From Fusobacterium sp. JB019 (lineage in GTDB: Bacteria; Fusobacteriota; Fusobacteriia; Fusobacteriales; Fusobacteriaceae), in assembly GCA_030673965.1 (NCBI GenBank), contig JAUTCN010000002.1, positions 186,001 to 250,000 on the forward strand: a stretch of 64,000 bases of DNA, written 5' to 3'. This document shows positions 2,251 to 22,352 of this stretch, in pieces. Both the position numbers and the translations under genes were made by a program. Every line of letters starts with the position of its first letter. Position 1 is the stretch's first letter. Under the pieces are notes generated by a model that worked only from the letters and a program-made list of their open reading frames with translations, was not told where the DNA came from and ran no database searches.

Positions 2251-2284
2251 ATCTTTGGAAAATATTTTATAAATTTTTATCCCC

Positions 2285-2478
2285 AAAAACTGTCGACCTC
2301 CGGTAAGGCAAATTTACCTATAGATCGACAGTTTTTTATAAAGCTAACAAAATAAATAATTTATCGAAAAATCATAAGGATAAATAAGAGAAACTTATAG
2401 AAGAAAAGACAAAAATTTAGGGGGTCGACAGAAACGACTTTCTTATGCTATAATTTTAGGGAGGTTACAAGGGTACCT
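2285..2478 (+). promoter_or_regulatory. CRISPR leader 1 (terminator hairpin plus promoter)
   Basis: A leader found again, nearly identical, before arrays 2 and 3. It opens with a hairpin whose arms AAAAACTGTCGA (2285-2296) and TCGACAGTTTTT (2325-2336) enclose a second stem GGTAA/TTACC, and which can end incoming transcription. It closes with a promoter: TCGACA at 2425-2430, 18 bases, TATAAT at 2449-2454 preceded by TG (extended -10). The start point should fall near 2461, about 18 bases before the first repeat. The junction GAGGTTACAAGGGTACCT is fully conserved in all three copies and is the natural candidate for Cas1-Cas2 recognition. Confidence 0.85.
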
Positions 2479-3173
2479 ATTTTAATCTAACCAATGTGGA
2501 ATGTAAATATTTTGATAGGTGACGAAAAAAAAGTTTTAGGTTGGCATTTTAATCTAACCAATGTGGAATGTAAATATTTAAAGTTTTATACTAACCACCT
2601 GGTATCCCTTAAATTTTAATCTAACCAATGTGGAATGTAAATTATGTTGCTACTATTTGAGTCACTCTAGTTTTCAATTTTAATCTAACCAATGTGGAAT
2701 GTAAATGCCAAAGCTTTCTTTTTGATCTGCAAAGAAATTAAATTTTAATCTAACCAATGTGGAATGTAAATGAGTAAATTTCCTCCCAGAAGTTTTCCAT
2801 ATAAATTATTTTAATCTAACCAATGTGGAATGTAAATTTTTCATTAATTTGTATTGCGTGTCTTGTTCTTTCATATTTTAATCTAACCAATGTGGAATGT
2901 AAATAAAAATGAACTTGAAGTAATAATGCGTGAGGACGCATTTAATTTTAATCTAACCAATGTGGAATGTAAATAAAAATGAACTTGAAGTAATAATGCG
3001 TGAGGACGCATTTAATTTTAATCTAACCAATGTGGAATGTAAATCTCCTACTTTTTTAGTAGGACTTGGAATATCAGTTATTTTAATCTAACCAATGTGG
3101 AATGTAAATTTCATTTCTTCCATTAATTTACTTGCTATATCCAATTTTAATCTAACCAATGTGGAATGTAAAT
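2479..3173 (+). CRISPR. CRISPR array 1, 11 repeats, 10 spacers
   Basis: Repeat of 30 bases beginning ATTTTAATCTAACC and ending GGAATGTAAAT. Repeats start at 2479, 2546, 2613, 2677, 2742, 2808, 2875, 2945, 3015, 3080 and 3144. Spacers are 34-40 bases. The 3' end resembles the Clostridioides type I-B repeat, so Cas6 would leave an ATGTAAAT handle. Transcription runs + from the leader at the left. Spacers 7 and 8 are identical. The last repeat is intact; right after it, TGTGGAAT at 3175-3182 looks like a fragment of a further decayed repeat. Confidence 0.98.
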
Positions 3174-3698: not shown

Positions 3699-4406
3699 AT
3701 GAGATACGAGGTGTGTTTTAAATTACAGAAAAAAGAGATTGTAAATGATTATAGAAGGAAGTTCATTTCATATATAAAAAATATTTTAGAAAAATATGAT
3801 AATGATATTAAAGATAAATTTTATAAAACAAATCATGAAAAAGATTTTTCTTTTTCAGTTTATTTTAAAGCTGAAAAATTTACAGATGAAAAAATATATT
3901 TAAAGAGTAACGATATTAAATTATTCATATCTATTTATTCGTTAGAAGGCGCGCTATATTTTACAAATGCAATGCTTGGATCTATTCATAAAAAATATTT
4001 AATAGCAGATAATGAAATGGAAGTAACAAGAATAAGGCCTCTTCCTGAAAAAGAAATAAATAAAGAAGAAGTTATATTTAAAACAATGTCTTCCATTGCT
4101 ATAAGAGAAAAATTAACTGATAAAAAATCTTGGTATCATGATTTTGATGAAAAAGGATTAAAAGTTTTAAAGAAAAATTTAGTAAATAATTTATCAGATA
4201 AATTTCCAACTAAATATTTAGAAGAAATAAATATATACCCTTACGAAATGAAAAGAACTGTTGTAAAAAATTATGGAATAAAATTTCCTGTTTCAATGGG
4301 AGTTTTTAAAGTAGAAGGGAACAAAGAAATATTAAATTATTTATACAAAGCAGGAATAGGAAGTAAAAGCAGTGCAGGATTTGGAATGGTAGATATTTTA
4401 AGTTAA
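3699..4406 (+). CDS. cas6: CRISPR pre-crRNA endoribonuclease Cas6
   Basis: Cuts the repeat RNA to make mature crRNAs, probably for both the type I-B and the type III-B complexes, since no other Cas6 is present. 235 residues, a RAMP-fold protein with the family's C-terminal glycine-rich loop GIGSKSSAGFGMV (about residues 218-230). An earlier in-frame TTG at 3669 lies before the AAGGAGG site (3687-3693), so ATG 3699, five bases from it, is the start. First gene of the I-B operon; cas8b follows after 12 bases. The catalytic His cannot be assigned with certainty. Confidence 0.9.
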   Translation: MRYEVCFKLQKKEIVNDYRRKFISYIKNILEKYDNDIKDKFYKTNHEKDFSFSVYFKAEKFTDEKIYLKSNDIKLFISIYSLEGALYFTNAMLGSIHKKYLIADNEMEVTRIRPLPEKEINKEEVIFKTMSSIAIREKLTDKKSWYHDFDEKGLKVLKKNLVNNLSDKFPTKYLEEINIYPYEMKRTVVKNYGIKFPVSMGVFKVEGNKEILNYLYKAGIGSKSSAGFGMVDILS

Positions 4407-4418
4407 AGGAGGAAAGTC

Positions 4419-6077
4419 ATGGAAGAAGATAATATGATAACTTTAACTTTAGGAGACTGGCTATATAATTCAGGATTAGTTGGTTTTATAAAAATTTTAG
4501 AATATGCTAAAGAAGAAGTTATTTATAAAGAACAAGAAATTTTGTTTAATGTGAAAGCTTTAGATAATTTTGAAGAAAAATATTTTAATTATTTCATAAA
4601 TAAATATGAGAAAAAATTATCTTGGTCAAAAATAGTTTCTTTCAAAGAATCTATTGATAACTGGGAGCAAGAAAATTTTAATAATTTTAACGAGGTTTCT
4701 TTAAATAATCTAAATGATAAAATTGATTTTTTTAAAAAAGTAATAAAAAGTAATAGTCATGTTGCTGCTTATGAATTAATAACAGAAAAAAAAGATATTT
4801 TAAAATTAGAAAAGCAGTTAAAAAAAATAAAACTAAAAAAGAAAGAAAAAATAGCAGATAGATTAGAAGAAATAAAAGAAGTAACTAAATTGATGAAAGA
4901 AATAATTGATTTTTATTCTTTAGAAGAATCTAAAAAATTTATAAGTGCAAAAAATATAATATATACAGTTATTAAAAATGCTTGGGAAGGAGTTTCTTTT
5001 TTAAATACTCAAGCTAAAGAAAAAGATATGTATAAAAACTATAAAAATTATTTTTTAGAAGAATGCAGAGAATATTTGAATGTTGATAAAGAAAAATATA
5101 TTTATAATTGCAGTACTTGTAATAGACCAATTAAAAATTTAGATATAGAAATGAATTTTTTAAATAATATGGGTTTTGATAGTTAAAGAAAACCTTCAAC
5201 TGTATGGAATTATAATAATGATATATCAATATGTCCTTTATGTAGATTGGTTTATTCTTGTGTTCCTGCAGGTTTTATATATGTTTATGATAAAGGAATA
5301 TTTGTAAATAATAATTCTAATATAAAGGATTTAGTTAGAATTGCAGATAAAATAGAAATTGAAATTTTAAAAGAAGAAAGTTTTAATTCAAATACAACTT
5401 TTAAAAGTTTAATTTCAGCATTGATAAAAGAAAATAATTCCAGTGTTAAATATGAATTAGCAGATATTCAAGTGGTTAGATATGAATCTGGAAAATATAG
5501 ATTTAATCTTCTTTCAAAACAAATGCTAGAAGTGCTATATAATTCAAAAGAAGAATTAAATAGAATAATTATGGCTGGCTATAAAGATGGAGATTTATAC
5601 AATAGATTATATGAAATGACAATAAAAAAATTGCTTAATAATGAAAATTTGTTTCTTTTAATTCATAAATTATTTATTATTAAAATGAAAGATAATAATA
5701 AAGATATTTATTTTAATTGTAAAGAAATACAAGAAATTATAAAAATTAATTTTAACTTTTTGAAAGGAGCTGGATATATGGAAGGTCAAGAAAAGAATAT
5801 ACTGAAAACTTATAGTGGAGCAGGATATTATTTAAAACTAGAATATTTAAAGAAAGGTTCTGAAAATAAATTAAATGGAATAGCTTATAAATTATTAAAT
5901 GCTCTTAAAACTAATAATCAAGGAATGTTTATGGATGTAATTATTAATTGTTATTTATACACAGGAAAACAAATTCCAGGATTTTTTACAGATTGTTTAA
6001 AAGATACAGTTAATTTAAAAACTATAGGTTATGCTTTTGTAAGTGGGTTAGTAGATGGAGAAAGTTATAGTAAATAG
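4419..6077 (+). pseudogene. cas8b: cas8b (Cst1/CXXC-CXXC family), split by in-frame stop
   Basis: Large subunit of the type I-B Cascade, which recognises the PAM and recruits Cas3. One continuous frame of 553 codons runs from ATG 4419 (AAAGGAGG at 4405-4412) to TAA 6077, broken only by TAA at 5184-5186. The first half (255 aa) ends after CSTC; the second resumes in the same frame and holds the partner CPLC about 12 codons past the stop, so the stop cuts the zinc ribbon that names the CXXC_CXXC Cst1 family. No frameshift, and no restart with a ribosome site after the stop: the next start codon, TTG 5247, lacks one. A single substitution (for example AAA to TAA) explains it. The remaining codons look undecayed, so the mutation is recent, a readthrough site, or a sequencing error. 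Confidence 0.85.
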
Positions 6078-6094
6078 AATTGGAGGAAATTACA

Positions 6095-7695
<1,601 letters not shown>

Positions 7696-7697
<2 letters not shown>

Positions 7698-7720: not shown

Positions 7721-7733
7721 TTGAAAGTAGGTG

Positions 7734-9959
7734 ATGAAAATAGAGTTTTATGCTAAGTCAAATCCAAAAGAAACTATTCAACAGCATACAGATAAGTTAC
7801 TTAAAAATTATAAAATTTTAAATGAGTTATATTATAAAGTTCCAATAAATTGGAATTTATTAAAAGATGCTTGTATTTACCATGATTTAGGAAAAATCAA
7901 TTCTAAATTTCAAAATAAGATATTATATGGTAAAAGAAATGAAAATGAAGTTGCTCATAATTTATTAAGTTTAGCTTTTATAAATACAAAATTATTAAAA
8001 GAAAAATACAGTGAAGATGATATAAAAATTTTGGCTCATGCTGTTGCTTATCATCATGAAAGAGGAATTTATGATAAAGAACTATATGAAGAGGAATTAA
8101 AAGATATAAAAGAAAATGCAAAGGAATTTAAATACGATAAATTAGAAATAACTAGAATAAAAGAAATACCTGCAAAATATTTTAGTAAGGATAGAATCTA
8201 TGATGATAATGAAAATTTTTATAACTATGTTTTAATAAAAGGACTATTAAATAGACTTGATTATGCAGCAAGTGGAGATATAGAAGTTGAACAAAAGAAT
8301 GATTTTTTAAGAGAGTCTCTTTCTAATTTGATGCTATCTTGGAAAAATTTAAATCCCAAATCTCATTGGAATGAACTTCAAAATTTTATGATAAATAATA
8401 AAGAAAAAAATACAATTGTAATTGCTCAAACAGGAATGGGGAAAACTGAAGCTGGACTTTTATGGATAGATAATAATAAAGGATTTTTTATATTACCATT
8501 AAAATCAGCAATTAATGAAATTTATAAAAGAATAACTGGAAATATAGTTTTTAAAAACAAAGTAGGATTACTTCACTCAGATACTTTTAGCAAATATATT
8601 GAATATGAAAAAGAAGAAATAGATATTCAAAAATATTATAATGAAACCAAACAATTATCTTTAGCTTTAACAGTTTGCACTTTAGATCAAATATTTGATT
8701 TTGTATATAGATATAGAGATTTTGAATTAAAATTAGCAACATTATCATATTCAAAAATAGTTATAGATGAGATTCAAATGTATTCTTCAAATCTAGTAGC
8801 GTATATAATAGTAGGATTAAAAATGATAAATGAAGTAGGTGGAAAATTTTCTATTTTAACAGCAACTTTTCCTAAGTTTATAGGAGATTTATTAAAAAAA
8901 TATAATGTTAACTTTGTAGAAAGTGAAAAGCCTTTTATTAATAATCAAATAAGGCATAAAGTAAAAGTATTAGAAGAAGATTTAAATGTTAAAAGGATTT
9001 TAGAAAATTATAAAGAAAATAAGATTTTAATTGTTTGTAATACTGTGAAAAAAGCTCAAAGTATTTATAATGAACTTGTAAAAAATAAAGATATTGAAAA
9101 ACAAAGAGTAAATTTGTTACATTCTAAATTTATAAGGAAAGATAGAAATGAAAAAGAAATAAAAATTATGGAGCTAGGAGATAAAGATAACAAAGATTTT
9201 GGAATTTGGATAGGAACTCAAGTTGTAGAGGCATCTTTAGATATTGATTTTGATTTATTGTTTACAGAATTATCAGATATAAATGGATTTTTTCAAAGAC
9301 TTGGAAGATGCTATAGGAAAAGAGAGTTTAAGGAAGAAGGATATAATTGCTATTTATATGTAGGGAAAGAAAAGCCTTGCAGTGGTATAAGAAATAATGA
9401 AAGATCTATTATAGATTATGATATTTTTAAAGCTTCTAAAGAGATATTATTAAAAGAAAAAATAGATGGTAGCTTATCAGAACAGAAAAAATTAGATTTA
9501 ATTGATAGGATTTATTCTACAGAAAATATAAAAGATACAAAGTATTATGAAAAAGTGATTGAAGGAATAAGATATTTAAATACTATAGATGCGTATGAAT
9601 TAGATAAAAAAGAGGTAAGAAAAAGATTTAGAGATATTAATAGTTTATTAGTTATTCCTCTTCCAGTTTATGAAAGAGAATATAAAATTATAAAAAAATT
9701 AGAAGAAGAAATAAATGTTAAAAAACCTAGTACAAAGGAAAATAAGATTGAAAAATCTAAAAAGCTAGAATTATTAAAGGCTTATACTTTAAATATTAGT
9801 TACGGAGAAGCAAACAAAAGAATAAAAGATGAAGAAACAATAAATTTAGGAAAATTTGAAAAAATATATATTTTAGATTGTGATTATGATATTGATTTAG
9901 GTATTGTTTTAAAAAAAATTGAGAATAATAATCTTGATTTTGATTCTTTACTTATTTAA
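7734..9959 (+). CDS. cas3: CRISPR nuclease-helicase Cas3
   Basis: Recruited by Cascade to unwind and degrade target DNA. About 741 residues: N-terminal HD nuclease (YHDLGK near 50-54, HAVAYHH near 102-108) then a superfamily-2 helicase with Walker A AQTGMGKT (about 231-238), DEIQ box (about 345-348), LTATF, and the C-terminal Q-R-L-G-R arginine finger motif. All catalytic motifs are present, so it should be active if a Cascade is made. ATG 7734 (GTG 7731 is the alternative) follows TAGGTG closely. It lies downstream of a terminator-like hairpin. Confidence 0.95.
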   Translation: MKIEFYAKSNPKETIQQHTDKLLKNYKILNELYYKVPINWNLLKDACIYHDLGKINSKFQNKILYGKRNENEVAHNLLSLAFINTKLLKEKYSEDDIKILAHAVAYHHERGIYDKELYEEELKDIKENAKEFKYDKLEITRIKEIPAKYFSKDRIYDDNENFYNYVLIKGLLNRLDYAASGDIEVEQKNDFLRESLSNLMLSWKNLNPKSHWNELQNFMINNKEKNTIVIAQTGMGKTEAGLLWIDNNKGFFILPLKSAINEIYKRITGNIVFKNKVGLLHSDTFSKYIEYEKEEIDIQKYYNETKQLSLALTVCTLDQIFDFVYRYRDFELKLATLSYSKIVIDEIQMYSSNLVAYIIVGLKMINEVGGKFSILTATFPKFIGDLLKKYNVNFVESEKPFINNQIRHKVKVLEEDLNVKRILENYKENKILIVCNTVKKAQSIYNELVKNKDIEKQRVNLLHSKFIRKDRNEKEIKIMELGDKDNKDFGIWIGTQVVEASLDIDFDLLFTELSDINGFFQRLGRCYRKREFKEEGYNCYLYVGKEKPCSGIRNNERSIIDYDIFKASKEILLKEKIDGSLSEQKKLDLIDRIYSTENIKDTKYYEKVIEGIRYLNTIDAYELDKKEVRKRFRDINSLLVIPLPVYEREYKIIKKLEEEINVKKPSTKENKIEKSKKLELLKAYTLNISYGEANKRIKDEETINLGKFEKIYILDCDYDIDLGIVLKKIENNNLDFDSLLI

Positions 9960-9975: not shown

Positions 9976-10464
9976 ATGAAGATAACTGGAATAATGTTTT
10001 ATTATTATTTTGTATGTCCTAGAAAGCTGTGGCATTTTACTAAAGGAATTTCCCTTGAAGATGAGAGTGAAAATGTTATGCTAGGAAGACTTTTAGATAA
10101 TTCATCTTTTTCTAAAGATAAGAAACATATTATGATTGATGAAACAGTTAATGTTGATTTCATAAGAGACTGGAAGATATTACATGAAATTAAAAAAAGC
10201 AAAAGCATTGAAGAAGCTTCAATTTGGCAGGTTAAATATTATTTATATTTTTTGAAAAAAAGAGGAATAGAAATAGAAAAAGGGATCTTAGATTATCCTA
10301 AAGTAAAAAGAAGAGAAGAAATATTTTTATCAAAGGAAGATGAAGAAAAAATAGAAGGTATACTAAAAGAAATAGAAGAGATAGTTATGAGGGAGAAAGC
10401 TCCTGAAAAAATAAATTCAAAAATTTGCAAAAAATGTGCTTATTACGAGTATTGCTATATCTAG
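9976..10464 (+). CDS. cas4: CRISPR adaptation exonuclease Cas4
   Basis: RecB-like Fe-S exonuclease that trims prespacers and helps select the PAM with Cas1-Cas2. 162 residues from ATG 9976 (TGGAGG at 9964-9969). The first cysteine sits in FVCPRKLWHF near residue 13 and the C-terminal three in CKKCAYYEYC, the expected Fe-S cluster set. An upstream in-frame start inside cas3 lacks a ribosome site. cas1 follows after 12 bases. Confidence 0.93.
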   Translation: MKITGIMFYYYFVCPRKLWHFTKGISLEDESENVMLGRLLDNSSFSKDKKHIMIDETVNVDFIRDWKILHEIKKSKSIEEASIWQVKYYLYFLKKRGIEIEKGILDYPKVKRREEIFLSKEDEEKIEGILKEIEEIVMREKAPEKINSKICKKCAYYEYCYI

Positions 10465-10476
10465 TAGGAGGAGTTT

Positions 10477-11469
10477 ATGAGTGAAACTTATTATTTATTT
10501 TCGGATGGAAGATTGAAAAGAAAAGATAATGTTTTAAGATTAACTACACCAGAGGGACAATACAAGGATATGAAAATAGAAGTAACAAATGAGATTTATA
10601 TTTTTGGAGAAGTTGATTTAAATACCAAATGCTTAAACTATGTGGGACAACTTGGAATAAATTTACACTTTTTTAATTACTATGGTTTTTATACAGGAAG
10701 TTTTTATCCTAAGGAAAGAGCTGTATCAGGAAGACTTTTAGTAAAGCAAGTAAATCATTATGAAGATTCAGATAAAAGAACTATTCTAGCTAAAAAATTA
10801 ATAGAAGGAGCAAGTTTTAACATTAAAAGAAATTTGAGATATTATAACTCTAGAGAAAAAGATTTAGAGGATCCAATTTTTTTAATAAAAAAACTTAGAA
10901 GTGAAATTGATAAATGTAAAGATGTAAAAGAACTTATGGGAATAGAAGGAAATATTAGAAAAGTATATTATAGTACGTGGAATAAAATTGTTAATCAAGA
11001 AATAAATTTTGAAAAAAGAGTTAAAAGGCCACCGGATAATTTAATCAATACTATGATATCATTTATTAATTCTTTAATATATACAACATGTTTAGCTGAA
11101 ATATATAAGACTCAGCTTAATCCAACAATAAGTTATCTTCATGTTCCAGGGGAAAGAAGATTTTCTTTATGCCTAGATCTAGCAGAAATTTTTAAGCCTG
11201 TCCTTGGAGATAGATTGATATTTTCTCTATTAAATAAAAATATTATAACTGAAAAAGATTTTGAAGAAGAATCTAATTTTTACTATATTAAAGAAAAAGG
11301 AAGAAAGAAAATACTTCAGGCATATGATGAAAGACTTAAGATGACAATAAAACACAAAACGTTAAATAGAAATGTGAGCTATAGACATTTGATAAAATTA
11401 GAATGCTATAAGATAATAAAGCATCTGATGGAAGATCAAGAATATATACCTTTTGAAATGTGGTGGTAA
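10477..11469 (+). CDS. cas1: CRISPR integrase Cas1
   Basis: Integrates new spacers at the leader-repeat junction together with Cas2. 330 residues, full length for type I-B Cas1. The N-terminal beta domain opens with YYLFSDGRLKRKDN. Metal-ligand region residues are visible: Glu in MGIEGNIRKVYY (about 145), His in SYLHVPGERR (about 223), and Glu in CLDLAEIFKP (about 238). AGGAGGAG precedes the ATG. It ends two bases before the Cas2 start. Confidence 0.96.
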   Translation: MSETYYLFSDGRLKRKDNVLRLTTPEGQYKDMKIEVTNEIYIFGEVDLNTKCLNYVGQLGINLHFFNYYGFYTGSFYPKERAVSGRLLVKQVNHYEDSDKRTILAKKLIEGASFNIKRNLRYYNSREKDLEDPIFLIKKLRSEIDKCKDVKELMGIEGNIRKVYYSTWNKIVNQEINFEKRVKRPPDNLINTMISFINSLIYTTCLAEIYKTQLNPTISYLHVPGERRFSLCLDLAEIFKPVLGDRLIFSLLNKNIITEKDFEEESNFYYIKEKGRKKILQAYDERLKMTIKHKTLNRNVSYRHLIKLECYKIIKHLMEDQEYIPFEMWW

Positions 11470-11471
11470 TT

Positions 11472-11750
11472 ATGTATGTAATATTAGTTTATGATATAAA
11501 ATTAGATGAAAAGGGAGCAAAAGTTTTAAGAAATGTTTTTAAAATATGTAAAAAATATCTTACTCATATTCAAAATTCTACCTTTGAAGGAGAATTAACA
11601 AAACCTTTACTTGAAAAATTAAGACTTGAATTAAAAGGATATATAAGAGAAGATAGAGATTCTCTTTTAGTTTTTGAAAGTCGTCATGAAAGATTTTTAA
11701 AGAAACATTTCTGGGGAATGAAGGATGATAAAACTTCTAATTTCTTTTAA
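11472..11750 (+). CDS. cas2: CRISPR adaptation protein Cas2
   Basis: Structural dimer that bridges two Cas1 dimers during spacer integration. 92 residues beginning MYVILVYDIKLDEKG, the ferredoxin-like strand typical of Cas2. ATG 11472 lies two bases after the cas1 stop; an in-frame GTG at 11460 inside cas1 is possible but less likely. Last gene of the I-B operon; the leader 2 hairpin starts five bases after the stop and probably terminates it. Confidence 0.95.
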   Translation: MYVILVYDIKLDEKGAKVLRNVFKICKKYLTHIQNSTFEGELTKPLLEKLRLELKGYIREDRDSLLVFESRHERFLKKHFWGMKDDKTSNFF

Positions 11751-11754
11751 ATTC

Positions 11755-11948
11755 AAAAACTGTCGACCTCCGGTAAGGAAGATTTACCTATAGATCGACA
11801 GTTTTTCATAAAGTTAATAAAATAAAAAATTTATAGAAAAACTGAAGAGGCAAATAAGAAAAACTTATAGTAAAATTAATAAAAAATTAGGGGGTCGACA
11901 GAAATGGCTTTCTTATGCTATAATTTTAGGGAGGTTACAAGGGTACCT
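11755..11948 (+). promoter_or_regulatory. CRISPR leader 2 (terminator hairpin plus promoter)
   Basis: Second copy of the shared leader. Hairpin arms 11755-11766 and 11795-11806; the loop of the inner stem reads GGAAGAT rather than GGCAAAT, while both stems are kept, which supports a selected RNA fold. Promoter TCGACA 11895-11900, 18 bases, extended TATAAT 11919-11924. The hairpin doubles as terminator of the cas2 transcript. Confidence 0.85.
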
Positions 11949-12578
11949 AATTTAATCTAACCAATGTGGAATGTAAATATGATAAACCATTTGATAATCT
12001 CAAAGTGTAGGTCAATTTAATCTAACCAATGTGGAATGTAAATGATTCAGGACCATAGTTCCATTTAGAATTAATTGAGATTTTAATCTAACCAATGTGG
12101 AATGTAAATTTTTCTTTTAGTTCATTTATTTTTTCTAATGAACTTACAATTTTAATCTAACCAATGTGGAATGTAAATTCTTTCTTCTGTGACTTTCTTT
12201 TCCACTTCCCCAGTATTTTAATCTAACCAATGTGGAATGTAAATATATATTTCTATATCTATAGAATATAATTCTTTAAATTTTAATCTAACCAATGTGG
12301 AATGTAAATGTTTCTGTATCAAATGCTATATAATCTTTCATTTGTTCAATTTAATCTAACCAATGTGGAATGTAAATCTTTGAGTTTTTATGTTACACAA
12401 CTTCTTTAAATTATTTTAATCTAACCAATGTGGAATGTAAATTTTTCTAATAAATTTTCTATTCTTTTCATTCTAAATCCATTTTAATCTAACCAATGTG
12501 GAATGTAAATGGCTATAAAATATTTAACCAATAAAAATATAACCTATGATTTTAATCTAACCAATGTGGAATATAAAA
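11949..12578 (+). CRISPR. CRISPR array 2, 10 repeats, 9 spacers
   Basis: Same 30-base repeat as array 1, second base T or A. Repeats start at 11949, 12014, 12080, 12149, 12215, 12280, 12348, 12413, 12481 and 12549; spacers are 35-39 bases. The last repeat is decayed at its 3' end (ATATAAAA), which marks the leader-distal side and confirms + orientation. Confidence 0.98.
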
Positions 12579-12604: not shown

Positions 12605-12781
12605 AATATGAATTTAATTTTGAATTTTTGAAATTTTATGGTATATTTAAGTGTAAGTTTTTGATAAATGAGCATTTAAAAACAGATGTTATATAAAAAA
12701 TTTAAAAAAGATTAATTTTCTTTTTTAAAAAACTTTTAAATTTTGATAATCAAAAAATAAGAGAATCAAGAAAGGTTGAGC

Positions 12782-14503
12782 ATGAAAGATAAAAAAATAT
12801 ATAGTTATCATACTTTTATGTTTCCATTTAGTATAGAATTCGATACTGATAAAAGTAGTGATGATTTTTTAAGTAGAATACATAATTTAATTAAAGATGA
12901 AAACTGGAAGTATGAGGAATTTAAAGTAAATGGTTTTAATGGCGAAATTCCAAATTATAATGAATGGGTATATTTTTATAAACCTGTTCAAAAATTATTA
13001 TATAATCAAAAAAATCTTAAAGATTTAACTAAAAAAGAATTGAAGGAAAAATTAAAAAATGAATTAAGTTTATATTATTCTTATGAAGGTTTTGATGAAA
13101 ATAAAGAAAATATTTATACTATACTTATTAGAAAAAAAGATAAAAAATTAAAAATAGATAGTTTAAAAATATATAATTTAAAAATTGTAGGAATATCTCT
13201 TAGAATATTTAGAACTGGTGTTGGAATATTATCTTTTAATTTAGAAAATTATAACTATAGTGACTTAAAAGATATAAATTTGATTAATGATTATGGGAGA
13301 AGAATTTATCCTCAGTATATAAGTGAATCTGAAGATTGTAGAGAAAAAATTTCTTTAGAAAAAGTCAAAAATAGTTTTTTAGCAGATAAAATTAAAATTA
13401 AGGTTGATAAAAAAAATAGAGAGTATTCGGAAAATTTTGAATCATGGGACTATAAAAATAAAAAAATATCAAAAGTTATATTGGATATTTTAGGAAAAAA
13501 ATTTCAATTGAAAAAAGAAAAAAAAGATAATGAAAGTATTGAAATAGAAACAATTATAGATGATAGAATGTTTACTATTTGTTGGACAGGAAATAATTAT
13601 TATTCAAAAGAATTTTCGACTATAAGAAATAACGACTATAGTTACTGTAACAATCAAGAATGGGAACAATATATTTTTATAGATGGAAATGGCAGTACAT
13701 GTCAAAGTAAAAATATGTTGAAAGAACTTTTGAAGAAGAGTACTTATGAAAGATGGATAGATTACGGGACACTTTATGGAATTAGTAGATATTCATTTGT
13801 TTTATTAACATCTGATTATGAAACTTTAAAAGAAAATCATGCATTATATTTGACAGAGCACATTAGAACTATGTATTATCAATTAAATGTAATTTGTTTA
13901 ATGCAAAGAGCAACTATCCTTAATTTTAAAAAGAGAATATCAGAATTTTTAGAAGATAATGGAAGAGATTATAAAAAAATTCAGATAATTCAAAAAGATT
14001 ATTTGAAATTTGTAAATGCTATGTGTTTTAGAGAAATTACAGCTCAAGAACAAGGAATAGAGTTATATAATATGTCAAAAGAAATTATGGAAATAGATCA
14101 ATCTCTAAGAGAGCTAGAAAGCGAAATATCAGAATTAAATAATTTTTATGCTTTGAAAAAATCAGAAGAAGATAACGAAAGAGAAAGAAAAAAATCAGAA
14201 GAAGAAAAAAGGAAAGAAAAAAGAATTAATTATTTAACAGTAATTGGTGGATCATTAGTCTTGCCTAGTTTTTCTATAGGAATAATTAGTTTAGACAAAT
14301 ATAAGAACATATTAAATATTTATCCGTTTAGTATTTTTAACGGGTTATTAGGAGGAATTCTTTTTATAATAATTCCACTTTTATTTTATCTTATATTTAT
14401 TAACAATTATATAAGCAAAGATCTTGAAAAAAAAGAAGTTGAAAAAGTTTCAATGTTTACTTTTATATTTATAGTGATTATTTATTTAATTATAGTAGCA
14501 TAA
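12782..14503 (+). CDS. CorA-like membrane protein of the type III CRISPR locus
   Basis: 573 residues. A large N-terminal soluble part (to about 400) with no motif I recognise; then a long helical region, ending in a very charged coiled coil rich in Glu/Lys/Arg (about 440-480); then hydrophobic segments near 484-503, 519-541 and 557-572. This is CorA-like topology, without the GMN signature of Mg channels. Some type III-B loci (Bacteroides kind) encode a CorA-family effector opened by SAM-AMP made by Cas10, and placement as the first gene of the cmr operon fits that role: a membrane channel that stops growth on infection. Three rather than two hydrophobic segments is unusual. ATG 12782 is six bases after AAAGG; TTG 12776 abuts it and is rejected. 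Confidence 0.7.
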   Translation: MKDKKIYSYHTFMFPFSIEFDTDKSSDDFLSRIHNLIKDENWKYEEFKVNGFNGEIPNYNEWVYFYKPVQKLLYNQKNLKDLTKKELKEKLKNELSLYYSYEGFDENKENIYTILIRKKDKKLKIDSLKIYNLKIVGISLRIFRTGVGILSFNLENYNYSDLKDINLINDYGRRIYPQYISESEDCREKISLEKVKNSFLADKIKIKVDKKNREYSENFESWDYKNKKISKVILDILGKKFQLKKEKKDNESIEIETIIDDRMFTICWTGNNYYSKEFSTIRNNDYSYCNNQEWEQYIFIDGNGSTCQSKNMLKELLKKSTYERWIDYGTLYGISRYSFVLLTSDYETLKENHALYLTEHIRTMYYQLNVICLMQRATILNFKKRISEFLEDNGRDYKKIQIIQKDYLKFVNAMCFREITAQEQGIELYNMSKEIMEIDQSLRELESEISELNNFYALKKSEEDNERERKKSEEEKRKEKRINYLTVIGGSLVLPSFSIGIISLDKYKNILNIYPFSIFNGLLGGILFIIIPLLFYLIFINNYISKDLEKKEVEKVSMFTFIFIVIIYLIIVA

Positions 14504-14517
14504 AAAGGAGGCAAGAA

Positions 14518-15804
14518 TTGGCAAAGTTAGAAGTTACATTAAAGCAGCACACACCGTTAATTCATTTTGAAAGTGATATTGAAGGAGCAACGCTTAGAGC
14601 AACAGAATTAAAATCTAAGTTAGATAAGTTTTTAATAGAACATTTTCAAAAGGAAAGTATTGATTATAGTAATTATTTAATAAAAGGACAAAAGAAATCT
14701 TTTAATTATAAGGTGAAAATTAAAAATGTGAAAAATTATGATAAAGAAGATATAGAAAAAAATAAAATTAAAAATGGAAAAATTGAATATAAAAGAAGTG
14801 GACAGCCTAAAAAAATAAATTTTCCACTATTTTTTGCAAATCTTGGAGAAGAAAATAAAGATAAGTTTTTTTCTTATTGCGACAATTTAGAGGTGGAATT
14901 TTTTTCATTTAAAAAAGAAGTTATAGAAAAAATAAGAGATCTTTTACCAGAATTTTTATTTTTAAATAATTTTGGAACAAGACAAAGTAAAGGCTTTGGA
15001 AGCTTTTTTATAAATGATGAATTAATTTATAAATTAAATCAAGAAAATAAAAAATATGAAGAAAATGTAATGAAAAAATTAAAAGAATCTTATCCCTATT
15101 TTGAAGTGAAAACCGATAAAGAAGGTATTGAAGTTTATAAAAATTATAAAAAATTATTTTATAAAATAGAATTGTTTTATAAATCTTTAAGAAGTGGAAT
15201 CAATCAAGTTAAAAATGGTGAAAGTGTTTTTTATTTTAAATCTTTAATATTTTTGTATGCAAAAGATAAAAATATACAGTGGGATAAAAAAAGTATAAAA
15301 GAGGCATATTTTTCTAAAAATTTAAAAAAAGAACAAACTAAGCATAAAGGAAATAAAGAATTAGAAAAATATTTGATCAAAGATTTATTGGGACTATCAA
15401 AAGAAGAAAGTTGGATGACATATAATGGTAACATAACTAAAGAGAACAATTGTAGTGACAAAAAAAAATCTATTGATAGATTTCAGTCTCCAATTTTTTT
15501 TAAGCCTATTAGGGCAAAAAATGAAAATAAATTTCAAGTATTCTTTAAAGGAAATAATAATTCTCAAATTTTGGACAAAGAATTTATTATAAAAAATAAT
15601 GGAGTTGGAAATTTGAAGTTATCTACACCTAAAAAATTTGATATTAATGATTTTTTTAAATGTATTTTTGAAAAAAATATATTTGATGAAGGTGAAGATA
15701 AATATGTTGAAAAAAAATTTCAAAATAGATCAGAATTTAAAGAACTGAGAGAAATATATGAAAAAATAAGAAATAAAAAGTATAAAAGATTGGGTGATAA
15801 ATAA
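14518..15804 (+). CDS. cmr1: type III-B RAMP protein Cmr1
   Basis: Cas7-like subunit capping the 3' end of the type III-B effector. 428 residues; the N-terminal strand EVTLKQHTPLIHF and an EGATLRATELK helix fit Cmr1, and GTRQSKGFGSF near residues 153-163 is a RAMP glycine-rich loop. The start is TTG at 14518, six bases after AAAAGGAGG; no suitable ATG is nearby. It lies 14 bases after the CorA-like gene and its stop overlaps the cmr2 start by one base. Confidence 0.85.
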   Translation: MAKLEVTLKQHTPLIHFESDIEGATLRATELKSKLDKFLIEHFQKESIDYSNYLIKGQKKSFNYKVKIKNVKNYDKEDIEKNKIKNGKIEYKRSGQPKKINFPLFFANLGEENKDKFFSYCDNLEVEFFSFKKEVIEKIRDLLPEFLFLNNFGTRQSKGFGSFFINDELIYKLNQENKKYEENVMKKLKESYPYFEVKTDKEGIEVYKNYKKLFYKIELFYKSLRSGINQVKNGESVFYFKSLIFLYAKDKNIQWDKKSIKEAYFSKNLKKEQTKHKGNKELEKYLIKDLLGLSKEESWMTYNGNITKENNCSDKKKSIDRFQSPIFFKPIRAKNENKFQVFFKGNNNSQILDKEFIIKNNGVGNLKLSTPKKFDINDFFKCIFEKNIFDEGEDKYVEKKFQNRSEFKELREIYEKIRNKKYKRLGDK

Positions 15805-17330
15805 TGACTAAATATATAGGGGCAACAATAGGTCCAATTTTTGCTACATTGATGGAAGCTAAAACAACAAAAGAGATGTGGGGATCAAGTTATTTATTTT
15901 CTTATATTATGAAAAAAATAATAGAAGAGATAAAAGAAAAAGAATTTTTGATTCCATATAAAGGGACTGAATATTTAAAAAAAGAAAATCAAGCAGGATT
16001 ATATCATGACAGATTTATAATAAAATTAAATAGTGAAGAAGATTTTGATGATATTATAAAAGCTAAAGAAAAAATATTTGAAAATTTAGCCGAAGCTATT
16101 AGTGAAGAAAATATTGTAGAATATTTAAATAAGTATATTAAATTTAATATAGTAGAAGTAGATGTTAAGGAAGATGAAAATCCAATATTTAAAGTTTCTA
16201 ACTATTTAGATGTTTTAGAACTACAACCTCAATTGTGTACAAATAAATTAAAACAAGATTATATAATGAACTATTTTAATGAAAAAGAAAATAATATATT
16301 TACTGAAGATGCTTTTGGTGAAGAAAAAGATAAATTTAAAATTAAAAGCCTTCCTGAAATAGCTATAAAAGCCATTTTAGATAATGAAAATATTAAATTA
16401 GAAGAAAAAAACAAGATAGAAAAAAACTTTGAAAATCATGTAGAAAATGATGACGACGAAGCATATAAAATTTTAAGTAAATATAAAGATATATTTAGAA
16501 AACATCATAAATATTATGCAACAATTAGATGTGATGGTGATAATATTGGAAAAATAATTAGAACTATTTCAAAAAATAAATATCAAGATTTTTCAGAAAA
16601 TTTATTTAAGTTTTCTGAAAACAATGTAAAGTTAATCAATACTTATGGAGGATTAACTATATATGCTGGAGGGGATGATTTATTATTGTTTGCTCCAATT
16701 ATTAATGGTGAAAAAAATATATTTACTTTAATTGAAGAAATATCAGATAATTTTCAAAAAACTATAAAACGTGAATATGATGAAATTTTAAAAGAAGAAG
16801 AAAGACCTACTTTATCTTTTGGTGTAGACATAAGATACTATAAAGATTCAATGTCTAAATCAATTTCTGAATCAGCTAATATGTTATTTGTAAAAGCTAA
16901 AAAATATGAAGGAAAATATAAAGAAAGTAATGCCAAAAAAAAAGAAAATGAAAAAAAAGATTATGAGAAAAATGCAATAGGAATTAAAGTAAATAAACAT
17001 AGCGGAAGTGAAATTGAATTTGTAGTAAGCAAAGAAAAAGGGTCTTTTTATACAGAATTAAAAAATATGTTAAATATAAATTATGAAAATAACCTTTTAA
17101 AAAGTATGATATATACATTAGAAGAACAAATTATACTTTTGGAACAAATTATAAATAATGAAGAAAAAATAGAGGAATTTTTTAATAATAAATTTAAAAA
17201 AGAATGTCATGAAAATTTGGATAAGATTAAAGATTTATTTAAAACATGCAAAAAAGATGAAGATATAAAAACTAGTATAAATATTTTGAAATTTATGGCA
17301 TTTTTAAGTGAGAAAGGAGGAGAAGAATAG
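15804..17330 (+). CDS. cmr2: type III-B Cas10 (Cmr2), HD-less, GGDD intact
   Basis: Large subunit and nucleotide cyclase of the Cmr complex; on target RNA binding it makes a signal molecule (cyclic oligoadenylate or, in CorA-linked systems, SAM-AMP). 508 residues. The N-terminus starts directly with the Cmr2 segment around MWGSSYLFSYIM (25-36) and has no HD nuclease domain, so it should not cut DNA. Palm motifs are intact: CDGDNIG (243-249) and YAGGDDLL (287-294). TAATG overlap with cmr1 and TAGTG overlap with cmr3 imply tight coupling. A Lys/Glu-rich linker lies near 370-395. Confidence 0.95.
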   Translation: MTKYIGATIGPIFATLMEAKTTKEMWGSSYLFSYIMKKIIEEIKEKEFLIPYKGTEYLKKENQAGLYHDRFIIKLNSEEDFDDIIKAKEKIFENLAEAISEENIVEYLNKYIKFNIVEVDVKEDENPIFKVSNYLDVLELQPQLCTNKLKQDYIMNYFNEKENNIFTEDAFGEEKDKFKIKSLPEIAIKAILDNENIKLEEKNKIEKNFENHVENDDDEAYKILSKYKDIFRKHHKYYATIRCDGDNIGKIIRTISKNKYQDFSENLFKFSENNVKLINTYGGLTIYAGGDDLLLFAPIINGEKNIFTLIEEISDNFQKTIKREYDEILKEEERPTLSFGVDIRYYKDSMSKSISESANMLFVKAKKYEGKYKESNAKKKENEKKDYEKNAIGIKVNKHSGSEIEFVVSKEKGSFYTELKNMLNINYENNLLKSMIYTLEEQIILLEQIINNEEKIEEFFNNKFKKECHENLDKIKDLFKTCKKDEDIKTSINILKFMAFLSEKGGEE

Positions 17331-18409
17331 TGAAATATTTAGTTAGATTAAAACCTTTAGATTCATTTTTCTTTTCTGGCAAAAATACTTTTAGATTTAG
17401 AAATGGAGAAAAAAGAAAAGAAGCAAACCACTATATTGAATCTGAATATTATCCTCAGCAAACGACTTTATTAGGAGTAATAAGAAAGGAACTTCTTATA
17501 AAAAAAGGATGGTTTAGAGAAAATAGGAATGATTATGCAAAAGATATTAGAGATAAAAAATTAAATTCATCTAAATTATATAGCTTAGTTGGAAAAGGAA
17601 GTTTTAATGCTAAAGGAAAAAATGATTTTGGTGTAATAAAAAACATATCTCCTTTATTTTTATATAATGATGGGAAATTATATAAAGAAAATTCATTAAA
17701 GGAACAATTAGGGAAGAAAAAATATGATAATTTTAAAGATAAAAATATAAAATTTAAAGTTAGTGATAAAACTGCTAGAGTTTACTTAGGAAACCAAAAA
17801 AAAGAAGGAACTTTTTTATTAGAAGAATATGACCAAAAAGAAGAAGGAGTAAAAGAAGTAGTTTCTATAAAAAATTCAGGTGAAAAAATAAAATTATCAA
17901 CTATCTTTAAAGATGATTTAAGAGTAGGAATAGATGTAAATAAGAAAGAAGCTTTTTATAAACAAAAATTTTTAAGATTAGAAAAAAACTGGGAATTTTC
18001 TTTTATATTAGATTTGTCAGAAGAAATTTTTGATAGCAATTATGAAAACATAGTTTATATAGGAGCTGAAAGTAAACCTTTTAAAATGAGCATAGAAAAG
18101 ACAGAAGAATCTTTAAATGATTTCTTGCCTGATAAGGGAGAAATAGAATTATTAAGTGATAGCATAATAAAACAAGAAGATTATAATACAATAGTTGAAA
18201 ATTCATATTTTATTTTAGGTGAATTTAAATATTTCAAAAATTTTAGAGTGGAAGATGGAAAATATCAAAAATCTAATCCTATGTTGATATTAAAAAAAGG
18301 TTCAATTATTTTCTATAAAAAAGATAAAAGTAAAATTATAAAGGAAAAATTAGAAAATAAAGAATATAAAAAAATAGGATATAACTATATTATAGGGGGA
18401 GAGGAATAA
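17330..18409 (+). CDS. cmr3: type III-B RAMP protein Cmr3
   Basis: Cas5-like subunit binding the crRNA 5' handle beside Cas10. 359 residues; the N-terminus reads LVRLKPLDSFFFSGKNTFRF, then YPQQTTLLGVIRKELL (about 42-57), both typical of Cmr3. It starts at GTG 17330, overlapping the cmr2 stop by one base (TAGTG), with GGAGGAG just upstream. Its stop overlaps the cmr4 ATG. Confidence 0.9.
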   Translation: MKYLVRLKPLDSFFFSGKNTFRFRNGEKRKEANHYIESEYYPQQTTLLGVIRKELLIKKGWFRENRNDYAKDIRDKKLNSSKLYSLVGKGSFNAKGKNDFGVIKNISPLFLYNDGKLYKENSLKEQLGKKKYDNFKDKNIKFKVSDKTARVYLGNQKKEGTFLLEEYDQKEEGVKEVVSIKNSGEKIKLSTIFKDDLRVGIDVNKKEAFYKQKFLRLEKNWEFSFILDLSEEIFDSNYENIVYIGAESKPFKMSIEKTEESLNDFLPDKGEIELLSDSIIKQEDYNTIVENSYFILGEFKYFKNFRVEDGKYQKSNPMLILKKGSIIFYKKDKSKIIKEKLENKEYKKIGYNYIIGGEE

Positions 18410-19239
18410 TGAGTACTGAAATGAATAGAGATTTATATATAATAGAATGTGTAACAAATTTACATGTGGGTAGTGGCGATAATGATTTTGGACTTATAGA
18501 TAATAGAGTACAAAGAGATGTAATAACTGGTTATCCTACTATTAATGCTTCTAGTTTAAAAGGAGCTTTTGCAAGTCACTTTAATAATGAAAAAGATAAA
18601 AAAAGAACAAAAGAAGGGGAAGCTATATTTGGAAGAGGGAATGATACTAAAAAAGATGAAGATAAAAACTTTATAGGTCAAGGAAAATATAAATTTTTTC
18701 CAGCTAACTTACTTGCAATCCCTGTAAGAAGTTCAAGTAGACCTTACTATCTAGTTACTTCAGATCAAATTATAGAAGATTATAATGAAATACATACTTT
18801 ATTTAAAGGTGAAGAGTCTAATTTAAAATCAAATAAAGATAATAAAAAAGAAAATTTAGATTTAGAGGGTGAAGAAGTAAAAGCAGAGAAAATAAATTTT
18901 AGAGAGAAAGATATATATGTAATAGAAGATAAAGAATTTTCTAAGATTGTTGAAAATCTACCTGTAATAGCTAGAAATCATCTTGATAATGGAGAAAGCA
19001 AAAACTTATGGTATGAAGAAATAGTTCCAAGAAAATCAATTTTTTACTTTGGTATTGACAAAGGAGTAGCTGAGGAAGGAACAAAATATGAGGAAGATTT
19101 TAATAACGAAATATTATTTGAATATAAAGACAGTGAAGGAAATAAAAAAGGGGAGAAAAATATAATCCATATAGGGGGAAATGTAACTGTAGGATTTGGA
19201 GCTTGTAAAATAATGAAATTAGGTGATATTAATGATTAA
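18409..19239 (+). CDS. cmr4: type III-B backbone RNase Cmr4
   Basis: Cas7-like backbone subunit that cleaves target RNA every six bases. 276 residues: NLHVGSGDNDFG near 18-29, then NRVQRDVITGYPTINASSLKGAF, the Cmr4 signature with the catalytic Asp region; the C-terminal glycine-rich loop is NVTVGFGACK. TAATG overlap with cmr3. The 3' end carries AGGTGATATTAATGA, which serves as ribosome site and start for cmr5. Confidence 0.93.
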   Translation: MSTEMNRDLYIIECVTNLHVGSGDNDFGLIDNRVQRDVITGYPTINASSLKGAFASHFNNEKDKKRTKEGEAIFGRGNDTKKDEDKNFIGQGKYKFFPANLLAIPVRSSSRPYYLVTSDQIIEDYNEIHTLFKGEESNLKSNKDNKKENLDLEGEEVKAEKINFREKDIYVIEDKEFSKIVENLPVIARNHLDNGESKNLWYEEIVPRKSIFYFGIDKGVAEEGTKYEEDFNNEILFEYKDSEGNKKGEKNIIHIGGNVTVGFGACKIMKLGDIND

Positions 19240-19633
19240 TAAAAAGAAAGTAGAAGAATATATACCTAAGGTAATAAAATTAATAGAAGAAGAATTTAAA
19301 GATAGTAATAAAGGATTGCCGAAAGAATTAACAGGATATATAACAAGTTTTGGAGCAGCAATAATTCAAAGTGGTTTGATACCTGCTGTAGCTTTTTATG
19401 AAAGAGAAGAGTCAAATGGTAGTGATGAAACATCTAAAAATAGAAAAAAATTAATGAGAATAATAGGGAAATTATTATATGAAGATTTCAAACAAGATAA
19501 TTTGTTATTAGAAAAATTAATTGATGAGCATAACAAAATAAAAAAAGATGATATAATTAATGCTTCAGTAGCTATAAAATTAGTGATAAGATTATATAAA
19601 AAACTTGATGAAACAGGTGATATTAATGAATGA
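19232..19633 (+). CDS. cmr5: type III-B small subunit Cmr5
   Basis: Small helical subunit stacking along the complex. 133 residues, all-helical, with ELTGYITSFGAAIIQSGLIP (about 33-52), a hallmark of Cmr5. ATG 19232 uses AGGTG at 19221-19225 inside cmr4; an in-frame GTG at 19223 lies within that site and is rejected. It overlaps cmr4 by eight bases and cmr6 by eight bases, with nearly the same junction sequence at both ends. Confidence 0.9.
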   Translation: MINKKKVEEYIPKVIKLIEEEFKDSNKGLPKELTGYITSFGAAIIQSGLIPAVAFYEREESNGSDETSKNRKKLMRIIGKLLYEDFKQDNLLLEKLIDEHNKIKKDDIINASVAIKLVIRLYKKLDETGDINE

Positions 19634-20753
19634 TATCAAGGAATATAAAGGAAATATTGGTTACCTTTTTTATAAAAAAATGTATAATGAACTTTCTGAA
19701 AAAGGACAAGTAAAAAATGATTTTTGGAAAGAATTAAATAAATTAAGAAAAGAAAAAGATAATAAAGAAAAAGTAAAAAAAGAAATTAAAGATATTTTAA
19801 ATCCCACAAGGAAACCTAATGAAGATTTTTTTGTTGTTAAAACAAATGAAATCAAAAATTATAAAGTCAAGAATTCAGAAATCATAGAGTTAGGAAATAG
19901 CTCTTTAAAATTAAAGACTACTTATCCTGGACTTTTACTTGGAAGTGGCTACTCTCATGACACAGGATTAGAGGGAGATTTTAAATTAGGATTTTATTTT
20001 GACTATACTACAGGACTTCCAATTATACCAGGATCATCTATAAAGGGAGTATTAAGAAGTGTATTTAAACATGAAGATTATATAAAAGATTTATTAATAA
20101 ATAAAGAAAATCTAGATATAAAAAAATTAGAACAAGAAATATTTGATTATAGAGATATTTTTTATGATGCTGAAATAGAAACTGAAGATAAAAAAATATT
20201 TGGTGAAGATTACTTGTGTCCTCATGGGGAAAATCCTTTAAAAAATCCGACACCTCTAAAATTTTTAAAAGTGTTGCCAGGGATAACTTTTAAATTTCAA
20301 TTTGAATTAAAAAATGGTTTAATAACAGCAGAAGAAAAGAATGAATTATTTAGAAAAATTTTATTAGATATAGGAGTTGGGGCTAAAACAAATGTTAGTT
20401 ATGGTCAATTTGATAGAAAGGCTTCAGATGAAGAAAAAGAAAAAGAGAAAAAATTAAAAGAAGAAGCTGATAAAAAAAAGCAAGAGGAAGCAGCAAAAAA
20501 AAAGCAAGAAGAAATAAAAAAATTATCACAACCTGATCAAGATATATATTACTTGAATTTAGAAGAATTTAGAGATGAAAATAAATTAAAAGGTATTCTT
20601 GATAGATTAAAAGATTATAATTCAGAAGATAAAAAAAGAGTAGCGTTTTCACTAAAAGAAAAATATAAATCTTTAGGAAAATGGGATGGAAAACAAAGTA
20701 AAAAACAAACTGAAAAAAAGAATTTAATTGAGTCTATATTGAAGGAGGAATAA
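19626..20753 (+). CDS. cmr6: type III-B RAMP protein Cmr6, with C-terminal extension
   Basis: Cas7-like subunit next to Cmr1 at the complex head. 375 residues from ATG 19626. Cmr6 motifs: PGLLLGSGYSHDTG (about 101-114), PIIPGSSIKGVLRS (132-145), and glycine-rich loop GVGAKTNVSYGQFD (250-263). Residues 264-375 form an extra tail: a charged coiled coil of Lys/Glu/Ala repeats and a small C-terminal helical piece, beyond the usual family length. The tail may be an adaptor to another protein. It overlaps cmr5 by eight bases; the four-TM gene follows after one base. Confidence 0.88.
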   Translation: MNDIKEYKGNIGYLFYKKMYNELSEKGQVKNDFWKELNKLRKEKDNKEKVKKEIKDILNPTRKPNEDFFVVKTNEIKNYKVKNSEIIELGNSSLKLKTTYPGLLLGSGYSHDTGLEGDFKLGFYFDYTTGLPIIPGSSIKGVLRSVFKHEDYIKDLLINKENLDIKKLEQEIFDYRDIFYDAEIETEDKKIFGEDYLCPHGENPLKNPTPLKFLKVLPGITFKFQFELKNGLITAEEKNELFRKILLDIGVGAKTNVSYGQFDRKASDEEKEKEKKLKEEADKKKQEEAAKKKQEEIKKLSQPDQDIYYLNLEEFRDENKLKGILDRLKDYNSEDKKRVAFSLKEKYKSLGKWDGKQSKKQTEKKNLIESILKEE

Positions 20754-20754
20754 A

Positions 20755-21513
20755 ATGGCAAAATCTTCACCACAAACAAATTATTTTATGAAGGCTTTGA
20801 CCTTAAATAAATATTATGAAAAATTACTAATTATAGCAATGGTTTTGTCTTTAATTTTTATTTATATAGGAGAAAATAAGCTATTAATACTTTTAAGTAT
20901 TCTAAGTATTGTTGGTTTTATAGCTTTAGAACACGTAATTTCTAATTATCAGGCAAAAGCTGAAACAATTAGAAGAAAAGATTTTATAGATAATGCTTTT
21001 GGAACAAAATTATTAAATGAAAATTCAGAAGGATATTATGATAATGAAGAAATAGAAAAAGGTCTTTATAAAGCATTATTAAATTTATTTGAAAATTCTT
21101 TATTTTCTAAAGAAATTTCAGAAAAAATGCTAGAACAAAAGTTAAAAAAATCGATAATACCAGCCTTAATATTAATGATTTCAGCTGTATATGGATTTTT
21201 AGGAAATCAATTAATGATTCCAATTTTACAATTATTTTTATCAAAAGAGTTTTTATGTAAAAATATAAAATTAAATAATTATAATAAAAAGGTAGAAAAT
21301 ATATATAATAATATTGCTACTTTATGTGACACAGCTAAATTAAACAGCAAAAATATTTTAAAATATGAACCACATATCTTAAATATTTGGATAGAATATG
21401 AAGCTAATATATCTAATTCTAAATTATTTTTAGATGGGAAAATATATAATGAATTAAATCCTAGTTTAACTAAAAAGTGGGAAAAAATAAAAACAGACTA
21501 TAAATTTAATTAG
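20755..21513 (+). CDS. four-TM membrane protein, putative type III accessory effector
   Basis: 252 residues with hydrophobic pairs at about 24-39 and 43-63, a soluble helical linker of about 70 residues (ETIRRKDFIDNAF near 70-82), a second pair at about 134-149 and 151-165, and a soluble C-terminal domain of about 85 residues. The 2TM-linker-2TM plan resembles the S-4TM putative pore-forming effectors known from nucleotide-signalling defence loci, but I cannot confirm homology by eye. It starts one base after cmr6 with AAGGAGG overlapping the cmr6 end, so it is an integral part of the operon. A role as second membrane effector or as regulator of the CorA-like protein is inference. Confidence 0.6.
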   Translation: MAKSSPQTNYFMKALTLNKYYEKLLIIAMVLSLIFIYIGENKLLILLSILSIVGFIALEHVISNYQAKAETIRRKDFIDNAFGTKLLNENSEGYYDNEEIEKGLYKALLNLFENSLFSKEISEKMLEQKLKKSIIPALILMISAVYGFLGNQLMIPILQLFLSKEFLCKNIKLNNYNKKVENIYNNIATLCDTAKLNSKNILKYEPHILNIWIEYEANISNSKLFLDGKIYNELNPSLTKKWEKIKTDYKFN

Positions 21514-21517
21514 TTTC

Positions 21518-21711
21518 AAAAACTGTCGACCTCCGGTAAGGCAAATTTACCTATAGATCGACAGTTTTTCATAAAATTAACAAAATAAATATTTTACATA
21601 AAAATTGAAGAAGTAAATAAGAAAAACTTATAGTAAAAATTATAAAAATTTAGGGGGTCGACAGAAACGGCTTTCTTATGCTATAATTTTAGGGAGGTTA
21701 CAAGGGTACCT
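21518..21711 (+). promoter_or_regulatory. CRISPR leader 3 (terminator hairpin plus promoter)
   Basis: Third leader copy. Hairpin arms 21518-21529 and 21558-21569, starting four bases after the four-TM gene, so it also ends the cmr operon. Promoter TCGACA 21658-21663, 18 bases, extended TATAAT 21682-21687. The junction to the first repeat is as in array 2. Confidence 0.85.
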
Positions 21712-22352
21712 AATTTAATCTAACCAGTGTGGAATGTAAATTAAGGACAAAAAGGTTGACGGGGCATATTATGGAGTATCAATTTAATCTAACCAGTGTG
21801 GAATGTAAATTCTTTCACAACTTCAACTTCATTTTTTTCAGCTGCTTTAGAATTTAATCTAACCAGTGTGGAATGTAAATGATATTTACAGTAAATATGT
21901 AACAACTTCAGCTAAAAATTTAATCTAACCAGTGTGGAATGTAAATCTGTTTATTCTGAACTTATCTATAAGCCCATAATTTAACAATTTAATCTAACCA
22001 GTGTGGAATGTAAATTTTTTTCAACTTCAATTTCATATGATCCTTCAGGAACTTCAATTTAATCTAACCAGTGTGGAATGTAAATAACTTATCAAATTGA
22101 CCGTCAAGATCTGTATTTTCCAAATTTAATCTAACCAGTGTGGAATGTAAATACATTAGGCATTGTTAGTGTGAATTTTATAAACATAATTTAATCTAAC
22201 CACTATGGAATGTAAATTCTGGCATAGTATATTGAGGTGGCACGTAAGGTTTTTCATTTTAATCTAACCACTATGGAATGTAAATATGGGTGATGGAAAA
22301 ACAGAGTTTGTAATACCATAAAAATTTAATCTAACCAATGTGGAATACAATG
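21712..22352 (+). CRISPR. CRISPR array 3, 10 repeats, 9 spacers, three repeat variants
   Basis: Thirty-base repeats start at 21712, 21781, 21851, 21917, 21986, 22056, 22123, 22188, 22256 and 22323; spacers are 35-40 bases. The seven leader-proximal repeats have CCAGTGTGG, the next two CCACTATGG, and the last one CCAATGTGG as in arrays 1 and 2 but with a decayed 3' end. Leader at the left, + orientation. Confidence 0.98.

Follow-up and report, generated by a model that had tools for sequence, protein, structure and literature searches.

The large-subunit gene cas8b1 of the type I-B CRISPR-Cas system in Fusobacterium sp. JB019 is interrupted by one in-frame TAA, and we consider it likely that a recent single-codon nonsense mutation has made this gene a pseudogene, with the loss of full-length Cas8b1. 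The gene is located in a stretch of 64,000 nucleotides (contig JAUTCN010000002.1), which is called the window in this report; all positions are counted from its first letter. The following features of the gene are used in the argument.

4419..6077, + strand: cas8b1/cst1, large subunit of the type I-B Cascade, with one in-frame stop
4419..5186, + strand: ORF of the N-terminal fragment of Cas8b1, 255 aa, containing the first CXXC only; Shine-Dalgarno AAAGGAGG 5' of ATG 4419
5109..5120, + strand: first CXXC of the zinc ribbon, CSTC (C231/C234)
5184..5186, + strand: lone in-frame TAA
5232..5243, + strand: second CXXC of the zinc ribbon, CPLC (C272/C275)
5762..5769, + strand: Shine-Dalgarno gaaaggag of the Cas11b start
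5778..6077, + strand: Cas11b, internal in-frame ORF, 99 aa, with its own Shine-Dalgarno and a weak match to PDLC01541 (4.7e-5)

The frame at 4419-6077 consists of 553 codons, namely 551 sense codons, the TAA at 5184-5186 and the terminal stop (6075-6077), and translation from 4419 ends at 5184 after 255 residues, giving a product with half of the zinc ribbon and no C-terminal domain. A first-pass annotation of this DNA had described a lone TAA in an otherwise open frame of 553 codons, placed between the two CXXC motifs of a type I-B Cas8b. This is confirmed, with Cas8b1 as the family (Cas8b1/Cst1, PF09706), by the motif positions and by TIGR01908 of NCBIfam, for which the frame, if read through, scores 44.8 bits and passes the cut-off of 19.4. 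The distance of about 25 codons given there for the first CXXC agrees with the 22-25 codons found 5' of the stop, while the distance of about 12 codons given for the second has to be corrected to 16-19 codons 3' of it.

Taken alone, the N half matches positions 2-212 of the PADLOC Cas8b profile PDLC02050 (4.8e-57), and the C half matches positions 215-487 (1.6e-81). Codon-usage scores of both halves are within the range of the adjoining cas genes, and the two alternative frames of the C half have negative scores. A G+C content of 26.8% and the set of genes would suit a Fusobacterium-like host. Because the two halves match one profile end to end and both look coding, as had also been noted at first pass, cas8b1 is a single gene cut by a single stop and not two chance ORFs.

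The window Cas8b1 was aligned with 12 homologues, of which two are partial, and its identity to most of the near-full-length ones is about 42-58%. A sense codon is present in the stop column in all 12 homologues (Ser in five, Ala in five, Asn in one and Lys in one), and the column lies inside the conserved motif GFD..RK.SHVW. Since this column is variable among the homologues, the TAA has fallen on a site between the zinc knuckles at which substitutions are tolerated. The gene is present in 5 of the 61 genomes of the family and in 9 of the 98 of the phylum, and it was found in none of the six other genomes of the genus that were examined. The window copy is the only one with an internal stop, both among the phylum's TIGR01908 matches and among the family's P0001 matches. 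No solved structure related to Cas8b1 by sequence was found, and a sequence search of viral contigs gave no homologue.

The state of the C half provides information on the age of the stop. The two nearest homologues are 60.5% and 58.2% identical to it, compared with 52.5% and 56.5% for the N half, and of the residues that are constant in nine other near-full-length sequences, the C half has altered 1 of 51 and the N half 3 of 33. Relative-rate counts for the window protein are no different between the halves (p 0.25-0.42), and the frame contains neither a second stop nor a frameshift 3' of the TAA. In the second half, 184 of 2664 single-base changes (about 6.9%) create a stop, and none has been fixed in 888 bases; if this half has evolved neutrally, it has therefore diverged by at most about 5% since inactivation (3 / (888 x 0.069)), and zero is equally compatible. 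Because the C half keeps coding usage and conserved residues, the stop appears to be a recent mutation, or else its base is a sequence error. An undecayed C half is also expected from a gene that still functions by readthrough or from an erroneous base.

An error in sequence or assembly, or a minority variant in a mixed sample, would mean that the true gene is intact and that type I-B immunity is normal. The perfect coding state on either side of one codon would fit such an error, and the genome is a draft assembly of 22 contigs with an estimated contamination of 4.15%. However, the TAA is a base substitution in a non-repetitive stretch, which is a rare type of consensus error in short-read data. 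As a control, 444 kb of the same genome was scanned for adjacent ORFs that share a frame and show coding usage both before and after the intervening stop. Of the 29 pairs obtained, 27 have a start with a ribosome site at the junction. The two exceptions are cas8b1 itself and a pair at 61500 that is antisense to another ORF, leaving cas8b1 as the only coding-strand pair without a ribosome site there. The 444 kb contain no further lone in-frame stop like that of cas8b1, so the assembly is not generally error-prone, and we regard an error as unlikely. The same control tells us that the host genome does not read TAA as sense and that the lone stop of cas8b1 is exceptional.

Two routes by which Cas8b1 activity could still be obtained from the interrupted gene, stop readthrough and two chains that rejoin, had been offered at first pass, and neither is supported. 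Programmed or leaky readthrough of the TAA would give some full-length Cas8b1 and low-level type I-B interference; the range of residues accepted in the stop column suits it, as a variable site would tolerate several insertions, and so does the undecayed C half. Against this, UAA leaks least of the stop codons and is recognised by both bacterial release factors, a UAA-reading (TTA) anticodon is absent from all 47 typed tRNA matches of the genome, RNA structure around the TAA is no better than in shuffles (z -0.07 and -0.67), and no homologue has a stop at this site. Readthrough is thus very improbable. In the second route, a split Cas8b1 would form from the N fragment and a C fragment made by restart. 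Split cas genes are reported for Ligilactobacillus salivarius, in which a split Cas9 was partly active in a cell-free system (PMC11288051). In the window, however, the TAA separates the two motifs and no start codon lies between it and the second CXXC, so that CXXC...CXXC is not encoded as a single chain. The first in-frame start 3' of the TAA is TTG 5247; it follows the second CXXC and lacks a Shine-Dalgarno, and the sole well-spaced Shine-Dalgarno and start is at ATG 5778 (AAAGGAG). Because no start with a ribosome site is placed before the second CXXC, we give the rejoining of two chains the lowest probability of all the explanations considered.

The nonsense mutation that we favour would have a direct consequence for interference. 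In a solved type I-B Cascade, the PAM is read by the N-terminal domain of the large subunit together with Cas5, the displaced strand is supported by the C-terminal domain of the large subunit and Cas11b, and Cas3 docks on the large subunit (PMC11096372). A Cascade without Cas8b1 would lack PAM reading, holding of the non-target strand and docking of Cas3, and type I-B DNA interference would then be off. Because a fragment of 255 residues with half of a zinc ribbon cannot supply these roles, type I-B interference has probably been lost. The first-pass annotation had given this loss as the first of three alternatives, and we infer the same from solved and reconstituted type I-B Cascades (PMC11096372, PMC13199841).

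Cas11b, which is encoded inside cas8b1 3' of the stop with its own ribosome site, had been overlooked at first pass. An ATG, GTG or TTG with a Shine-Dalgarno is present at the Cas11b column in 12 of the 12 sequences that reach it (the window and the 11 homologues L002-L006, L009-L011, L015, L018 and L019), and the runner-up among 545 columns has only 2 of 12. At the level of sequence, an in-frame start with a ribosome site near the 3' end of cas8b, the mark of internal Cas11b translation, is therefore present. Such internal translation is known in other type I-B systems (PMC11899642, PMC11096372). In T. maritima, Cas8b1 leaves the complex when Cas11 is missing, and Cascade requires Cas11 (PMC13199841). 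Since 591 bases separate the TAA from the Cas11b start further downstream, Cas11b should survive the stop and would still be made from the internal Shine-Dalgarno and ATG 5778, unless polarity reduces the mRNA.

The remainder of the type I-B locus, with three CRISPR arrays, is as follows.

2268..3173, + strand: leader and CRISPR array 1, 11 repeats and 10 spacers (two identical)
3699..4406, + strand: cas6 of the I-B operon (TIGR01877, 2e-26)
6095..6958, + strand: cas7/cst2 (TIGR02585, 5.9e-64), ATG with Shine-Dalgarno
6945..7697, + strand: cas5t/cas5b (TIGR01895, 6.6e-29)
7731..9959, + strand: cas3 (HD nuclease and helicase), the only cas3 of the genome over the cut-off
9976..10464, + strand: cas4 (TIGR00372, 2e-24)
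10477..11469, + strand: cas1, I-B type (TIGR03641, 3.9e-135)
11472..11750, + strand: cas2 (TIGR01573, 5.6e-12)
11738..12578, + strand: leader and CRISPR array 2, 10 repeats and 9 spacers
21501..22352, + strand: leader and CRISPR array 3, 10 repeats and 9 spacers

The gene run is complete in the order cas6, cas8b1, cas7, cas5, cas3, cas4, cas1 and cas2, and in the interference set (cas8b, cas7, cas5, cas6 and cas3) the interruption is confined to cas8b1. A search of the genome gave no other TIGR01908 or TIGR02591 gene, and hence no second Cas8b of these families, and no second cas3 over the cut-off. Since Cas6, Cas7, Cas5, Cas3, Cas4, Cas1 and Cas2 have frames of their own, crRNA processing and possibly spacer uptake may continue. 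An orphan cas6-cas1 pair is located about 32-34 kb upstream of the window (L120:10376-12095; G000:C2 about 152.4-154.1 kb), and neither effector genes nor a CRISPR array accompany it within the 20 kb stretch read.

The three arrays share a repeat with a few base differences and are placed before cas8b1, between cas8b1 and a type III-B module, and after that module. Their leaders (2268-2478, 11738-11948 and 21501-21711) are about 210 bases long and 85-91% identical, and array 3 has a slightly different repeat, AATTTAATCTAACCAGTGTGG... In array 1, one repeat-spacer unit is exactly duplicated at 2875-3014, and the duplicated spacer of 40 nt contains a 7-bp hairpin (AATGCGTGAGGACGCATT).

The III-B module is listed here.

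12776..14503, + strand: CorA-like membrane effector of the III-B module (PADLOC PDLC01174, 2.6e-108)
14518..20753, + strand: cmr1, cmr2/cas10, cmr3, cmr4, cmr5 and cmr6, the III-B effector, uninterrupted (PADLOC, Pfam)

All frames for Cas10/Cmr2 and for cmr1 and cmr3-6 are open, as in a type III-B system, and the CorA-like effector beside the cmr genes would fit a SAM-AMP/CorA III-B system; no gene of the island is annotated as an NrN, DEDD or SAM-lyase partner, although PADLOC may lack models for some of these. Cmr2 has 508 aa and no HD-nuclease match. A protein of 252 aa with four membrane helices is encoded 3' of cmr6 in the III-B gene run (20755-21513) and matches the CBASS 4TM effector (PADLOC, 1e-45). 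Its closest plasmid relative, at 42%, is on C. difficile pCd18_2, where it adjoins a nucleotidyltransferase, and none of the family's other 60 genomes yielded such a gene. This 4TM protein may be a CBASS effector recruited to a type III system, which would make it a new type III effector.

What the stop probably leaves in place is thus processing by Cas6, the genes for Cas4-Cas1-Cas2 and a III-B module comprising Cmr1-6 and the CorA-like effector; the III-B/CorA arm, being able to use the same repeats, may continue. In its first alternative, the first-pass annotation had predicted that adaptation and the type III arm are kept; their genes are indeed intact in sequence, but retained adaptation is a guess, because cas4-cas1-cas2 are downstream in the same gene run and polarity is possible.

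Autoimmunity is a usual explanation for disabled cas genes. As a cause of the stop in cas8b1 it was rejected, because the 27 unique spacers gave no credible self-target in the own genome. The best match outside the arrays is 91% over 32 positions, all such matches are weak, AT-rich and partial, and most of them span spacer joins or involve one T-rich spacer. In phage and plasmid records no credible target was found for the spacers, and a scan of viral contigs with three of them was likewise negative.

Selection of the stop can be considered, in which I-B interference was switched off because of autoimmunity or cost and the operon was kept as a supplier of Cas6 and adaptation to III-B/CorA. It would accord with the III-B module, which has no cas6, cas1 or cas2 of its own in the island and shares its repeats with the I-B arrays, and with a type III-B system of Marinomonas that is able to use type I crRNAs (PMC5576922). 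However, besides the lack of a credible self-target, cas7, cas5 and cas3 are still intact and give no sign of a long-standing state, and selection cannot be demonstrated from one genome. We therefore think it quite improbable that the stop was selected. An equally low probability is given to a stable Cas8-less I-B state, in which the operon would supply Cas6 crRNAs, spacer uptake and Cas11b to a signalling III-B/CorA arm and the TAA would be a selected or reversible off-switch. Disabling I-B while retaining spacer gain, in a host that keeps the type III arm, had been called a meaningful regulatory state at first pass, and positive evidence for this was not obtained. Most simply, the cause is mutation and drift in one strain.

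For annotation of the strain, we suggest that type I-B be marked as interference-negative until tested, while the arrays, Cas6, the adaptation genes and III-B/CorA look usable. A useful by-product is the strictly conserved internal ribosome site for Cas11b in Cas8b1 genes (12/12). A nonsense codon 5' of this site should delete the large subunit and spare Cas11b, which makes a clean test possible. If the Cas8-less state is stable in the species, it would offer a natural test of how far the type III arm depends on a type I locus.

Among characterized systems, the locus is similar to the type I-B1 Cascade of T. maritima (TIGR01908, PMC13199841) in the family name of the large subunit, the set cas6-cas8b1-cas7-cas5-cas3 and the position of Cas11 inside cas8b1. 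Unlike the reconstituted T. maritima complex, its large-subunit frame is broken by the TAA. A strong Shine-Dalgarno is present at the Cas11b site inside the gene, while that of T. maritima failed in E. coli (PMC13199841). An in-frame start near the 3' end of cas8b that gives a separate small subunit is shared with Haloferax volcanii (PMC11899642) and Synechocystis 6714 (PMC11096372), but these have other Cas8b families, and here the upstream large-subunit chain is truncated.

Interruption of effector cas genes in a locus that is otherwise kept has been described for Ligilactobacillus salivarius, the strains of which had self-targeting spacers (PMC11288051), while none was found in the present genome. 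Another comparison is provided by the second I-B locus (L007) of the relative G037, in which cas8b1 is likewise broken and a CRISPR array is kept. That locus differs in that a deletion fuses cas8b1 to a cas5-like remnant and that an intact second copy (L006) is present in the same genome. The degraded G037 copy shows that cas8b1 decay occurs in this bacterial family, and the data call for nothing beyond drift or a recent mutation at strain level.
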